Shown here: piece by piece, positions 3,499-7,968 of the stretch
How positions within the stretch are numbered: the stretch's first letter is position 1
Layout: the number at the start of each line of letters is the position of its first letter
Assembly (NCBI GenBank): GCA_002402045.2
Contig: NVUX02000060.1
Span: 1 to 64,000, forward strand
Direction: 5' to 3'
Length of the DNA stretch: 64,000 nucleotides
DNA from: Paracoccaceae bacterium
Lineage (GTDB): Bacteria > Pseudomonadota > Alphaproteobacteria > Rhodobacterales > Rhodobacteraceae
Program-made: the position numbers and the translations under genes
The notes under the pieces: model-generated
Database searches by the model: none
The model's input: only the letters and a program-made list of their open reading frames with translations
Told to the model about the DNA's origin: nothing

Positions 3499-4506
3499 AT
3501 GAATAACGAACCCGAAAACTATGGCGGCAAGATCGTCAAAAAAATAGAAGCGCTCGGCATAGCCACCGAAATATTTGCACAGGTTGAATCTATCATTCCC
3601 GAGCGCGATTCCGATGTTGAGGCGCTCGAAGCCACCCATCTTGTGAGCGTTCCTGCGGGCCGAAAAGTGCAGAACATCACGAAAGAGGTGCGCGAGGCGT
3701 CTGAATACCTCAAGCCGCATCGCCGCGCAGGTGTAGCAAAGATGGATGATCTGCAAAGCCTCATTCGGTGGGCAGATCGCTTCAAGGGTGAAAGCTCTGT
3801 GCTCTACGCAAAGCCGGATATCTCAGACCCGTCGCTGACCTGCATCGCAGACTATCACCTGAGCGGCCCTTCAGTAATCAATCATCAAACAGGAGAGCCA
3901 ACCGCCCGCCATTGCGAGCATCGCGCCGTTTACAAGTTCCCGCTTTCAGACGAGTGGAAAGCTTGGATGGAAGCTTCGGGTAATCCGATGGAAAAGGATG
4001 AACTTGGGGAGTTTATTGAGGTCAATGCCAAGGATATCATGGACCCAACCCCCGCGATCTTGAGCGGCAAAGTAAACGATAAAAACGCTGATTGGGAAAA
4101 CCGTCTTATCACAACCGCCGCGCAGATCGAGGGGCGCTATGGCCAGCTGACACAGCTTCTTGCCATGTCAAAAATGTTTCAGGTTTTTGAAACCAGCGAT
4201 CTAACAGTGCAAACAAATCGCGACACCGGAGAGAGCCAAATTCAGTTCTTGAACGAGCATAAAGGGGCTGATGGCCAGCCGCTGAATATTCCCAACCTGA
4301 TCATCATCGCTATCCCTGTGTATCAAGGCGGCGCACTCTACCGCATGCCGGTGCGTTTTCGTTACCGCAAGCGTGGCAGCAGCGTGAAATTCATCCTGTC
4401 AGCCTACAACCCGGAAAAAGCCTTCAAGGCCGCGCTCAATGAAGCCGTGGACCTCGCAGCCGAAGCGACAGGATTGGAAACCTTCATGGGCACCCCCGAA
4501 ACCTGA
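3499..4506 (+). CDS. DUF2303 (YfdQ-like) phage protein
   Basis: 335 residues; start behind AAAGGA. The sequence matches my knowledge of the DUF2303 family found in many prophages (E. coli YfdQ): an N-terminal segment with THLVSVPAGRKVQNI, a central region with ARHCEHRAVYKFPLSDEWKA, and a C-terminal beta-rich part with PNLIIIAIPVYQGGALYRMP and RFRYRKR. Length is typical. The biochemical role is not established. The gene is commonly found in early phage regions next to recombination or modification genes, as here where a methyltransferase follows. Confidence 0.85.
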   Translation: MNNEPENYGGKIVKKIEALGIATEIFAQVESIIPERDSDVEALEATHLVSVPAGRKVQNITKEVREASEYLKPHRRAGVAKMDDLQSLIRWADRFKGESSVLYAKPDISDPSLTCIADYHLSGPSVINHQTGEPTARHCEHRAVYKFPLSDEWKAWMEASGNPMEKDELGEFIEVNAKDIMDPTPAILSGKVNDKNADWENRLITTAAQIEGRYGQLTQLLAMSKMFQVFETSDLTVQTNRDTGESQIQFLNEHKGADGQPLNIPNLIIIAIPVYQGGALYRMPVRFRYRKRGSSVKFILSAYNPEKAFKAALNEAVDLAAEATGLETFMGTPET

Positions 4507-4568
4507 TCTCTTTGTCTGGCCCCGCCCACGCGGGGCCAGTGATGGATATCAAAGGAGGACAAAATGAC

Positions 4569-5966
4569 ATGGTGCTACCACCCCGCAATGGCCTCTCCCT
4601 CTGCGCAGGAGGCGGAGGTTTGGATATGGGCATCATGCTTGCCCAGACAGACTTTCACACGCGCTGCTATGTTGAATGGGAGGAATATCCACGATCAACC
4701 ATTATCGCCGGAATGGATGCGGGATATTTTGCGCCAGCCCCGATCTGGACTGACGTTACCAGCTTTGACGGCAAGCCCTACAAAAACGCCATTGATACAA
4801 TATTGGCCGGATATCCATGCCAGCCGTTTAGCCAAGCGGGGAAGCGCAAGGGCGCAAATGATGAGCGGCACTTGTGGCCTGACATTGCGCGGATCATCCG
4901 AGAGGTGCAGCCGCCATGGGTTATCCTTGAAAATGTTGCCGGTCATGTCACCCTCGGCGCAGAAACCGTGCAGAGAGAGCTACAAGATATGGGTTTCGAG
5001 GTTGCGGCTGGGCTCTTCACAGCGGCAGAAACACGCGCGCCGCACAAAAGGGAGCGCTGGCTCTGCGTGGCCTACAGCAAGAGCAACGCGCGGCGGCTAT
5101 ACGCGCGATCGAGGTCAGGCGGGCAGCGAGAGGCCGACCTTGGAAGGGCTGGCAGAGAATTGGACAACACCGAGCGCGACAGACGGCCAACGGGGCGGAC
5201 GGGGAATAACCGCCGGCATGTCGGGGAGCAGCCTAACGCAGCTGGTTGCGCAATGGCCAACGCCCAAGGTTTTGTCAGGAGGGGCAAACAGCAACAGAGC
5301 TGCGAGGGGCGCGGGCGGGCCGGATTTACAGGAAGCGGCGCAGAATTGGCCTACTCCCACTTTGAGAGACCACAAAGGCGAGAGCGGGGCGGGGAGGCAA
5401 GAACGCCGGGCCCACCCGACAGACAACCTTCCGAATGCTGCGGCACAATGGCCGACACCATCGGCCATGCAGGATACCAAAGGCGACACAGCGAAGGTTT
5501 CGGAGCGAATGGCCAGCGGAAAGCAGATAGCTTTAGCTCATATCGCCCGCGCCTTCACCCTCCAGGGCCCACCCGATCAGTCGATTGGGAAAATGTCCTT
5601 CGCACAGCGCCGCACCTTGCACCGGCTCTTAGCCGATCTGGGATTGTTCAAGCATCCCAAGAAATTGCTGCACGCCTATATGCCACCCACGCGCCGATCT
5701 ATGCCCAATCCACTGGCGCAGGCATACCGGGTCAAACGGCGGCGGGAGCACTGGCTGAAGCGGCGCAACGCATATTGGAAAACAGCGCGGCTGAATCCGC
5801 AATTTGTAGAATGGTTGATGGGCTGGCCAAGCGGTCACGCGCTCTCAAGCTGCTCGGAAACGGAGTTCATCCGCTGGAAGCTGGATATGCAATCCGCACT
5901 CTACTCGACGCCCACGGCTGCCGGCGCATGGATGTGGAAGCCGCCTGTAGCGGTGGTGAAGATTGA
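4569..5966 (+). CDS. Phage C5 cytosine-specific DNA methyltransferase
   Basis: The frame encodes the family motifs in order: SLCAGGGGLDMG (motif I, SAM binding, about residues 9-20), GYPCQPFSQAGKRKG (motif IV, catalytic PC), ENVAGH (motif VI), the HKRERWLCVAY segment (motif VIII region), a long low-complexity variable region, and LLGNGVHPLEAGYAIRTLL near the C-terminus (motif X). It should transfer methyl groups from SAM to C5 of cytosine. The best Shine-Dalgarno (AGGAGG, 4553-4558) points at ATG 4564, which is in another frame. That frame begins MTWCYHP and would join the methyltransferase frame if the CCCC at 4581-4584 had one more C. The start at 4569 is therefore provisional. A second frame over the 3' half also looks coding (next entry). 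Confidence 0.8.
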   Translation: MVLPPRNGLSLCAGGGGLDMGIMLAQTDFHTRCYVEWEEYPRSTIIAGMDAGYFAPAPIWTDVTSFDGKPYKNAIDTILAGYPCQPFSQAGKRKGANDERHLWPDIARIIREVQPPWVILENVAGHVTLGAETVQRELQDMGFEVAAGLFTAAETRAPHKRERWLCVAYSKSNARRLYARSRSGGQREADLGRAGRELDNTERDRRPTGRTGNNRRHVGEQPNAAGCAMANAQGFVRRGKQQQSCEGRGRAGFTGSGAELAYSHFERPQRRERGGEARTPGPPDRQPSECCGTMADTIGHAGYQRRHSEGFGANGQRKADSFSSYRPRLHPPGPTRSVDWENVLRTAPHLAPALSRSGIVQASQEIAARLYATHAPIYAQSTGAGIPGQTAAGALAEAAQRILENSAAESAICRMVDGLAKRSRALKLLGNGVHPLEAGYAIRTLLDAHGCRRMDVEAACSGGED

Positions 5967-5985
5967 ACAAATGGAGATGTTTTGA
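5065..5985 (+). other. Alternative-frame tail overlapping the methyltransferase (WPTP-repeat type)
   Basis: In the +1 frame relative to the methyltransferase the DNA stays open and encodes repeated W-[PT]-T-P elements (NWTTPSATD, QWPTPKVLS, NWPTPTLRD, QWPTPSAMQD), then LNPQFVEWLMGWPSGHALSS, and ends QMEMF. I know these features as the C-terminal part of many phage proteins annotated as DNA methyltransferases. The opposite frame over the same bases encodes MAN/MAD elements and motif X, also a real family feature. Both frames therefore carry recognisable protein sequence. A ribosomal frameshift after about codon 165 would yield a second C-terminus. Whether it is made is unknown. Confidence 0.5.
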
Positions 5986-6466: not shown

Positions 6467-6850
6467 ATGCCTAAAACCAAAATCGTGACCCTATGCGGTT
6501 CATCCAAGTACACCGACATCATGGCAGTTTGTGCGTGGCTGATCGAGAAAAACGAAAACGCTATCGCCATGGGCCTGCACCTGCTGCCCATCTGGTATCC
6601 AGATTGCCCACCAGATCACCTCGCCGAGCATGAGGGTGTAGCGGATCAAATGGACGCGCTGCACATGCGCAAAATTGATATTTCCGATGAGGTGTTTGTC
6701 GTGAATTTTAAAGGCTACATCGGCGATTCCACCCGCAACGAAATCGCTTATGCAGTCAGTATTGGCAAACCCGTCCGCTACTTTACCGATGACCCAATCG
6801 GCATTGAGGTGCAGGAAATGCTAACCGCATGGCTGGAAAAAACCCAATGA
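6467..6850 (+). CDS. Nucleoside 2-deoxyribosyltransferase-like phage protein
   Basis: 127 residues. It opens with KIVTLCGSSKYTD and has MRKIDISDEVFVVNFKGYIG followed by DSTRNEIAYAVSIGKPVRYF. This is the signature of the nucleoside 2-deoxyribosyltransferase-like/SLOG-type Rossmann fold, where the first strand ends in a CGS/CGST loop and the acidic residue near STRNEIAYA is functionally important. Members cleave N-glycosidic bonds of deoxynucleosides or bind nucleotide derivatives. Closest relatives I recall are short phage and bacterial proteins of unknown substrate. It overlaps the next gene by 4 bases, so the two products probably work together. Confidence 0.7.
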   Translation: MPKTKIVTLCGSSKYTDIMAVCAWLIEKNENAIAMGLHLLPIWYPDCPPDHLAEHEGVADQMDALHMRKIDISDEVFVVNFKGYIGDSTRNEIAYAVSIGKPVRYFTDDPIGIEVQEMLTAWLEKTQ

Positions 6851-7968
6851 CAAAAATACAATGGACCGAGCAAACTTGGAATTCAATCGTGGGCTGCACC
6901 ATTACCTCGCCGGGCTGCACCAATTGCTATGCCATGAAGATAGCTAGTCGGCTGGGGTCGATGCCCAATATGCCGCAATACCACGGCCTCACCAAAAAGG
7001 TGAACGGCAACGCGGTGTGGACAGGCAAGATGAACCTTGTGGAAAGCGTGCTGTTGCAGCCGCTCAAGCGCAAAAAGCCGACCATGTATTTTGTGAATAG
7101 CATGGGCGACCTGTTTCACGAGAGCGTGCCTGACGAATGGATTGACCGCGTGTTTGCGGTTATGGCGCTTTGCCCGCAGCACACGTTTCAGGTGCTCACC
7201 AAGCGCGCGGACCGGATGCGGGATTATATGCGCGGGAACAGCTTCGATCGAATAGTCATGGAAATGATGCAGCTGCGGGAAAGTGGTGGATGGCCAACAA
7301 TAAATGAGCAATGCAAGCGGCATGGGATTCCCCACGCCAAGCCAGCATCGCGCGACGATTGGTGGCCCCTCCCCAACGTCTGGCTTGGCGTATCCGTAGA
7401 AGACCAAACCCGCGCAGATGAGCGCATTCCGCTGTTGCTGGATACACCGGCAGCGGTGCGGTTTGTGAGTGCCGAACCGTTGCTGGGGCCGGTGGATTTG
7501 TCCGCATGGGTTCACAACCCCGTTTGCCGTGCCTTTGATCCAACCCAATGCACCTGCGACCCTGACGATGTTTACGCTGAACTTGACTGGGTAATCGTCG
7601 GCGGTGAATCCGGCCCCAAAGCCCGCCCGATACATCCTGATTGGGCGCGTAGCCTGCGCGATCAATGCGTGGAGGCTGGGGTTCCATATTTCTTTAAGCA
7701 GTGGGGGGAGTGGCTTCCCATTGGTCAAAACGGGTTCAATCATTGGTCAGCCGTCACCCCAAGAGACCGCAAGGGAATTTGGCGTGGAAACGCGCGTTTT
7801 AATGACAGCATGGGCGGGCCAGAAACCAATATCATCAAGAACAGGCCGACGAAGTACGTTCTAACACCGAAACAATCCAGTGGTTGGCAATGTTGCCGTG
7901 TCGGCACCAAAGCCGCTGGCAACCTGCTCGATGGCAAAGAATGGCAGCAAATGCCGGAGGGGGCGTGA
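6847..7968 (+). CDS. Phage Gp37/Gp68-family (DUF5131) Cys-rich protein
   Basis: 373 residues from ATG 6847, overlapping the previous stop. The N-terminus (KIQWTEQTWNSIVGCTITSP, then GCTNCYA) carries a C-x6-C-x2-C cluster typical of the phage Gp37/Gp68 (DUF5131) family, which is thought to share features with radical-SAM enzymes. Other hallmarks are NSMGDLFHESVPDEWIDRVF, FQVLTKRADRM, WLGVSVEDQTRADERIPLLL, VRFVSAEPLLGPVDL and WVIVGGESGPKARPIHPDWA. A second Cys group (CRAFDPTQCTC) lies near residue 225. The family is widespread in phages; its reaction is not known to me. Neighbouring methyltransferase and deoxyribosyltransferase-like genes make a role in DNA or nucleotide modification worth testing. 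Confidence 0.85.
   Translation: MTKIQWTEQTWNSIVGCTITSPGCTNCYAMKIASRLGSMPNMPQYHGLTKKVNGNAVWTGKMNLVESVLLQPLKRKKPTMYFVNSMGDLFHESVPDEWIDRVFAVMALCPQHTFQVLTKRADRMRDYMRGNSFDRIVMEMMQLRESGGWPTINEQCKRHGIPHAKPASRDDWWPLPNVWLGVSVEDQTRADERIPLLLDTPAAVRFVSAEPLLGPVDLSAWVHNPVCRAFDPTQCTCDPDDVYAELDWVIVGGESGPKARPIHPDWARSLRDQCVEAGVPYFFKQWGEWLPIGQNGFNHWSAVTPRDRKGIWRGNARFNDSMGGPETNIIKNRPTKYVLTPKQSSGWQCCRVGTKAAGNLLDGKEWQQMPEGA

Follow-up and report, generated by a model that had tools for sequence, protein, structure and literature searches.

Closest described systems

In M.EcoHK31I, which recognizes YGGCCR, the small chain is encoded in another reading frame inside the large one. A review describes this enzyme as a two-polypeptide C5 methyltransferase, with motifs I to VIII and X on the large chain and only motif IX on the small one, and places its predicted TRD on the large chain (PMC3404938); a further paper calls it a naturally split methyltransferase (PMC3439449). 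M.AquI is a split C5 enzyme as well, according to the same review (PMC3404938). Its alpha chain has motifs I to VIII and its beta chain IX and X. A different kind of second frame is the ShiLan element, an out-of-frame HNH endonuclease inside an actinophage methylase (PMC11855218), and out-of-frame HNH homing elements in phage methylases are exemplified further in PMC9957025.

We analyzed a 64,000-nucleotide stretch of DNA from a Paracoccaceae bacterium (contig NVUX02000060.1; here called the window), which contains a C5 methyltransferase gene that is open in two frames, F0 and F1. Set beside M.EcoHK31I, the locus agrees in having motifs I to VIII and X in one chain (F0) and motif IX in the other (F1). 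Unlike in M.EcoHK31I, the second frame spans the whole gene from a start beside that of the first and carries arrays of cassettes, and the specificity region that we propose lies on the second chain (beta), whereas the review assigns the predicted TRD to the large chain of M.EcoHK31I. The M.AquI plan is resembled by loci that we call type C (L104 to L107, L252, L256, L265, and L362), with motifs I to VIII in F0 and IX and X in F1; the window differs from M.AquI in having X in F0. Single-chain actinophage methylases (prophiT49-1 gp22, L086 to L103, and L108) are alike in cassettes (LLPTP), IX, X, and a homologous catalytic domain but, unlike the window, hold all parts in one frame. The ShiLan element shares with F1 its place in a second frame within a phage methylase gene but is an inserted homing element, neither a part of the methylase nor coextensive with it. 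Among the matches listed from CC-licensed PMC papers, titles and abstract openings contained no account of an overlap such as this one.

Two open frames over one methyltransferase gene

On the + strand of the window, F0 comprises positions 4569 to 5966 (465 amino acids) and F1 positions 4564 to 5985 in the +1 frame (473 amino acids). The two ATGs are five bases apart, that of F1 upstream; 1398 bases are common to both frames, and the whole gene is two-frame. F0 matches PF00145 in Pfam (E=4.5e-33, residues 9-175) and phrog_363 in PHROG (E=5.6e-50, residues 9-451), and it contains in frame motifs VIII and X as well as the segments that we take to be motifs I, IV, and VI. F1 had no match in Pfam or NCBIfam. 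It does match phrog_27243 and phrog_1008, the latter also upstream of position 5065 (P0003 residues 80-241), which was the first hint that this family is the F1 frame of methyltransferase genes. From 5068 on, F1 shows four to five WPTP-type cassettes, the order of elements being WPTA, WTTP, WPTP three times, LNPQFVEWLMGWP (5791-5829), and the end QMEMF. The motif-IX-like LNPxFVEWLMGWP is encoded in F1 and not in the same chain as motifs I to VIII and X, and F0 of the window showed no segment resembling motif IX. The features are the following.

4552..4558, + strand: Shine-Dalgarno-like AAGGAGG (presumed role), with spacers of 5 nt to the F1 ATG and 10 nt to the F0 ATG
4564..5985, + strand: F1 gene, proposed beta subunit, N-terminus MTWCYHP (stop depletion, start peptide, phrog_27243 and phrog_1008 matches)
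4569..5966, + strand: F0 gene, proposed alpha subunit, C5 cytosine methyltransferase (PF00145, phrog_363)
4593..4631, + strand: F0 motif I (LSLCAGGGGLDMG), from sequence
4809..4832, + strand: F0 motif IV with PCQ (GYPCQPFS), PCQ invariant in alignment A1 (10 sequences)
4929..4937, + strand: F0 motif VI (ENV), ENV invariant in alignment A1 (10 sequences)
5037..5063, + strand: F0 motif VIII (APHKRERWL); in the family, selection passes from F0 to F1 within ~30 bases 3' of the motif
5068..5160, + strand: F1 cassette 1 (WPTARATRGGYTRDRG...), cassette family of 10 loci, F1 identity 0.59 versus F0 0.34
5161..5253, + strand: F1 cassette 2 (WTTPSATDGQRGGRGITAGMSGSSLTQLVAQ), family in 36 loci, modal-length members with F1 identity 0.90 versus F0 0.69
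5254..5346, + strand: F1 cassette 3 (WPTPKVLSGGANSNRAARGAGGPDLQEAAQN), 14-locus family, F1 identity 0.73 versus F0 0.38
5347..5448, + strand: F1 cassette 4 (WPTPTLRDHKGESG...), assigned by elimination to a loose family (40 loci), F1 identity 0.32 versus F0 0.25
5449..5540 (end approximate), + strand: partial fifth F1 cassette (WPTPSAMQDTKGDT...), from sequence; absent from the clustered cassettes retained
5550..5633, + strand: F0 segment RLHPPGPTRSVDWENVLRTAPHLAPALS, a pattern seen again in F0 of other loci, with F0-type substitution 150-90 bases before motif X
5791..5838, + strand: F1 motif-IX-like LNPQFVEWLMGWPSGH, FVEWLMGW core invariant in alignment A2, F1-type substitution
5850..5888, + strand: F0 motif X (LLGNGVHPLEAGY), F0-type substitution; overlaps F1 CSETEF

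An earlier note on this DNA, made from the sequence alone, had described the two tails correctly: the F0 tail continues the C5 methyltransferase and ends with motif X, F1 has its WPTP-type elements, LNPQFVEWLMGWP, and an end of its own, and (C)SETEF of F1 overlaps LGNGV of F0 at 5851-5868. It had also placed the beginning of the two open frames at about 5065, where both are indeed open, but F1 is already open from 4564.

A GC-rich, terminator-like inverted repeat (4518-4537; ggccccgcc...gcggggcc) lies between the methyltransferase gene and a DUF2303 gene (3499-4506; PF10065, 8.3e-55), and a DUF5131 gene (PF07505, 1.1e-97) is found at 6829-7968. DUF2303 and DUF5131 genes are typical prophage genes.

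Stop codons are depleted in both frames

We held the amino acids of one frame fixed, permuted synonymous codons within each gene, and counted the stop codons in the other frames. In the window, F1 has no stops in the catalytic part (2.7 expected) or in the tail (2.8 expected), and on the premise that F1 alone codes, 5.3 stops would be expected in the F0 tail, which has none. The third frame has 9 stops in the catalytic part and 10 in the tail. Taken alone, these counts are suggestive of protection of two frames.

Across homologues, the signal for both frames is overwhelming. Set 1 was chosen by F1 and derives from 86 sequences (L001 to L085 and the window), 78 of which had an F0 catalytic domain by pattern and blastp; 73 loci were used, after exclusion of L002 (in frame), L056 and L068 (whose frames jump in the tail), and L003 and L004 (no motif VIII by pattern). 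Their catalytic parts contain 2 F1 stops versus 135 expected (third frame, 290 versus 346), and their tails contain 1 F1 stop versus 91 with F0 fixed and 4 F0 stops versus 279 with F1 fixed, against 509 in the third frame. All four F0 tail stops belong to L085. For set 2, 63 of 71 SEN5-type loci were retained (eight were lost by pattern), with 1 F1 stop in the catalytic part versus 86 expected (third frame, 249 versus 259); the tails, counted in 55 loci, have 0 F0 stops versus 239, 1 F1 stop versus 147, and 493 stops in the third frame. Set 3 was picked solely by the F0 catalytic domain, which makes a selection bias from F1 impossible. It consists of the best 80 of 598 relatives, 79 of them usable (L274 is broken in F0), with a GC content of 0.45-0.70. 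Here, F1 has 0 stops in the catalytic part versus 116 expected (third frame, 330 versus 377), the depletion persists in loci with a GC content of 0.45-0.53, and in the 49 loci that have IX in F1 according to an initial, stricter pattern, the F1 tail count is 0 versus 35. As a control, 98 long neighboring genes from the same loci show no depletion, with 966 stops in the F1 frame versus 954 expected. Some near-duplicates occur within sets (L005/L016, which are one contig, and L020/L022), and sets 1 and 3 have contigs in common (L011/L203, L015/L227, and L028/L208).

Exceptions are few. F0 stops between VIII and X occur in L085, L214, and L222, with F1 intact and the X segment still in F0, and F1 stops are found in or just after the catalytic part in L077, L078, and L081, once each in L156 and L170 (set 2), and once each between VIII and X in L263, L266, and L267, which lie outside the tail totals of set 3. 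The tails of L056 and L068 show a joint jump of both frames, which puts IX in F2 and X in F1 and looks like the effect of a single indel. Depletion is weaker among single-chain and type C relatives, with 35 F1 stops versus 76 over 23 of 24 loci (L093 was lost by pattern) and several loci near expectation; among them, L002 and L086 are the same gene, and L104 to L107 are near-identical.

Each segment is conserved mainly for one frame

To locate the selection on each frame, we took mismatch rates at F0 codon positions 1/2/3 from pairwise DNA alignments of 72, 55, and 70 loci for sets 1, 2, and 3, respectively. The catalytic part of set 1 has the pattern of F0 coding (.308/.235/.481), and the cassettes have that of F1 coding (.411/.246/.266), F0 position 1 being F1 position 3. 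Cassette rates in the SEN5-type set (.426/.200/.163) and in the F0-selected set (.315/.146/.164) agree with set 1. In a 30-base profile of set 1, substitution is F0-type to the end of motif VIII (.31/.16/.50), intermediate in the first bin past it (.33/.20/.29), and F1-type in the next (.55/.24/.21). F0-type substitution returns 150-90 bases ahead of motif X; the pattern is then F1-type across motif IX (.35/.09/.08 in the best bin) and F0-type at X (.14/.16/.47), and it is mixed beyond (.28/.16/.27). The relative frame stays constant in the aligned blocks except in about 0.03 to 0.25% of bases. The DNA is shared out between the frames, each segment being conserved mainly for one while the other merely stays open. 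With this alternation of substitution types and the depletion of stops in homologues, the suggestion of the earlier note that one DNA tract is under selection in two frames is upheld, and for the whole gene.

Over the catalytic half, F1 residues are barely more conserved than those of the F2 control (1.19 versus 1.12, 1.28 versus 1.22, and 1.49 versus 1.42), and we rejected a strong conservation of F1 residues there given this small excess. In L358, a single-chain locus labeled Actinomycetota, a SWRS...WPRSG segment in frame after motif VIII resembles the catalytic-half region of F1, and part of this stretch may therefore be functional.

F1 has a conserved start of its own

Among 153 window-type loci, SEN5-type loci being left out, 140 had motif I by pattern, and 135 of these have an F1 start codon with a tryptophan within four residues, the W itself being part of the search pattern. 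The commonest starts are MTWLYLP, MWLYVP, MWLYIP, and MWILPK, often of the form M-x-W-L-Y-[VIL]-P, and the region varies in the F1 manner (e.g., entropies of.67/.63/1.97 at F1 codon 5). Such a conserved F1 start beside that of F0 points to separate initiation rather than a frameshift. The overlap is not equally long everywhere: F1 opens later in N15 (candidate start MTNDTSGL), and in L104 it has stop codons early in the catalytic region.

The cassettes vary as F1 protein

From 214 loci we cut 734 cassettes with a median length of 35 residues, and 26 families of at least 6 members cover 493 of them; the family details given here rest on 22 of the 26. In tight families, F1 identity exceeds F0 identity (.90 versus.52,.80 versus.43,.91 versus.61, and.73 versus.38), with changes mostly at F1 third positions. 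One short family is reversed (F1.75 versus F0.80), and loose clusters are uninformative (.32 versus.25 and.35 versus.28). Many families are found at several array positions. One possibility, which we put forward only tentatively, is that WPTP cassettes are interchangeable recognition modules that phages reshuffle to retarget or multitarget the methyltransferase via the beta frame only, the alpha frame over this DNA being just a tolerant linker. In that case, the second frame would amount to an evolvable specificity array concealed within the gene of the catalytic subunit itself.

The arrangement is widespread in phages

Scanning viral contigs with the F1 tail gave 166 relatives, of which 80 were retained (L006 to L085), most of which combine an F0 C5 methyltransferase with cassettes and IX at +1, both frames being open over the gene. 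A scan with SEN5 F1 gave 67 loci, and tblastn gave 213 phage records, among them gene 58 of Escherichia phage N15. At the DNA level, the SEN5 gene is matched in 69 of 5,426 complete E. coli genomes, in two of them over at least 80% of the gene; among plasmids, one record matches F1. Near the window's organism the gene is uncommon (matches in 8 of 61 near relatives), and L113 and L117, bacterial relatives from the window's own family, have the same two-frame plan.

When bacterial genomes were scanned, 80 loci emerged, belonging to alpha-, beta-, gamma-, and deltaproteobacteria or to MAGs labeled Planctomycetota, Chloroflexi, Acidobacteria, Actinomycetota, Hydrogenedentota, and Euryarchaeota, labels that may be wrong for phage contigs. 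By pattern, F1 lies at +1 of the methyltransferase ORF in 65 of the 80 (six of them without X in that ORF) and in the same frame in one; the pattern missed 14. On inspection of 13 of these (all but L342), the F0 methyltransferase proved to be open in nine and interrupted by a gap in L329. L343 and L344 are truncated by the contig edge, and in L362, which is of type C, F0 stops follow motif VIII. In set 3, X is in F0 in 63 of 79 loci, IX in F1 in 67, and both in 60, again by pattern; X is in F1 in 3 and beyond an F0 stop in 2 (L214 and L222), and three contigs are cut short. L238, which a loose pattern had labeled as having an in-frame IX, has IX in F1 on inspection.

Single-chain and type C relatives

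In actinophages (L002, L086 to L103, and L108), a single chain comprises the catalytic domain, LLPTP cassettes, a FSEWMQGWPLGW segment, and motif X, and 571 records of the phage collection match the single-chain tail by tblastn, L002 being the one inspected. F1 tails aligned with these enzymes from the cassettes through the IX-like segment (hhalign probability 98.5, E=2e-15). In the type C loci L104 to L107, F0 stops right after VIII and F1 carries cassettes, IX, and X; X is likewise in F1 in L252, L256, L265, and L362. The three plans together indicate that the catalytic and IX parts can be fused or lie in two frames and that X can go with either. Pfam likewise had no match for the C-terminal halves of single-chain and type C proteins. 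In five single-chain loci (L094, L096, L101, L102, and L108), further LLPTP cassettes, well formed, occur in F1 before the in-frame array, and an F1 stop lies close to the start of that array; these cassettes could be relics or belong to a second product.

An AlphaFold model of the single chain has a pLDDT of 62.8 and a pTM of 0.65, with mostly 80-95 in the catalytic, IX, and X parts, and its residues 2-415 superpose on M.HhaI (Z 20.9, rmsd 3.6, 239 residues aligned). The cassettes reach a pLDDT of only about 24-37, and the model therefore gives no support for folded recognition domains. The AF2 model of the F1 tail was poor (pLDDT 65.8, pTM 0.30), and in comparisons with the PDB the tail had no significant match by fold (best E 0.95) or by sequence.

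A split methyltransferase as the best explanation

As judged from sequence, dual coding of the tract is close to certain. We consider it quite probable that the locus encodes a C5 methyltransferase split into an alpha chain (F0) and a beta chain (F1) that resembles M.EcoHK31I but is almost coextensive and has shuffled cassettes; this reading is well supported by the sequences compared. Alpha would consist of cofactor and catalytic motifs I to VIII, an unconserved but nearly always open linker, and motif X. Beta would be initiated independently at the ATG five bases upstream, behind the same Shine-Dalgarno, and would comprise the conserved start peptide, an open, hardly constrained stretch, the cassette array (about 30-36 residues each, with the WPTP-type motif at the start), and the motif-IX-like segment. 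Together they would form the complete enzyme, to which beta would bring the small-domain side (IX and specificity region) missing from alpha. We infer that F1 is translated, that the chains associate, that both are needed, and that the cassettes set the target sequence. Standing against the split enzyme are the low conservation of F1 in the catalytic half, the poor F1 model, the low pLDDT of the cassettes in the single-chain model, the absence of Pfam matches in F1, the placement of the predicted TRD of M.EcoHK31I on its large chain, the F0 stops in L085, L214, and L222, and the F1 stops in L077, L078, L081, L156, L170, L263, L266, and L267.

A shadow ORF, left open by high GC content and a conserved F0 and called as a gene by software, would fit the hardly conserved F1 amino acids of the catalytic half, which scarcely exceed the level forced by F0, and strong F0 conservation does impose some similarity on F1, whose PHROG families span the catalytic half. 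We nevertheless regard it as extremely improbable, given 0, 2, and 1 F1 stops versus 116, 135, and 86 expected with F0 residues fixed, depletion that persists at a GC content of 0.45-0.53 and is absent from the control genes, and cassette variation that is greatest at F1 third positions. A mis-called frame was rejected given stop depletion in three locus sets against none in 98 control genes. That the F0 tail is the superfluous part, read through after an alpha that functionally ends at VIII so that only F1 matters downstream, is hardly less improbable: the F0 stops in L085, L214, and L222 and the poor conservation of F0 over the cassettes would agree with it, but F0 tails contain only 4 and 0 stops versus 279 and 239 expected if F1 alone were coding, and substitution at motif X is F0-type.

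The earlier note had also offered a repeated frame switch that makes methyltransferases with alternative target-recognition ends. One version of this would be a programmed frameshift that yields one protein, from I to VIII in F0 into the +1 frame for cassettes and IX and possibly back for X, an order of parts that matches the single-chain actinophage enzymes, and a double switch would bypass the F0 stops before X in L085, L214, and L222. We judge it unlikely given the conserved F1 start (135/140) and the openness of F1 upstream of any switch point (0 versus 116); moreover, F0 is open through the cassettes, and the window type would need the double switch. F1 has its own start and is open through the catalytic half, so that the alternative ends are not borne out; target recognition does fit the best reading, but on a separate subunit and not as an alternative C terminus. 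F1 might instead be a real overlapping protein unrelated to methylation, e.g., DNA-binding or anti-restriction, as we know of no F1 activity and its model lacks a PDB match. Overlapping genes often encode unrelated proteins, according to one paper (PMC6195259). This, too, is unlikely, since actinophages and L358 encode cassettes and IX in the frame of the catalytic domain, F1 tails align with the single-chain enzymes at E=2e-15, motif X is in F1 in L104 to L107, L252, L256, L265, and L362, and no motif-IX-like segment was seen in the window's F0.

Annotation and meaning of the overlap

The arrangement recurs in phages of many bacteria, and databases often record only one of the two proteins. 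F0 is the annotated gene in SEN5, N15, and, by frame arithmetic, BcepC6B, and F1 in JC01, SLP-22, and PMG1; both are annotated in Xanthomonas phage PhiXhv-28, and E. coli EC20 has fragments annotated as pseudo. Of 67 F1 tails compared, all 67 matched both PHROG 27243 (unknown function) and PHROG 1008 (DNA methyltransferase), whose entries as returned do not mention an overlap with a second frame. The earlier note had allowed that all WPTP-type entries might come from mis-called frames; these families do match F1 and records vary in frame, but the selection pattern points to F1 as a real protein. Both families probably correspond to the enzyme's missing specificity half, and function prediction or cloning from one frame may therefore mislead.

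A same-strand overlap of ~1.4 kb, nearly complete, has been kept across deep divergence and many hosts. On the sequence level, this is strong evidence that bacterial viruses have large dual-coding genes, with products that here seem to be parts of one enzyme, and it provides a natural case of overlapping genes that share out their DNA between frames. The cassette arrays make a question about modular DNA recognition open to direct testing.
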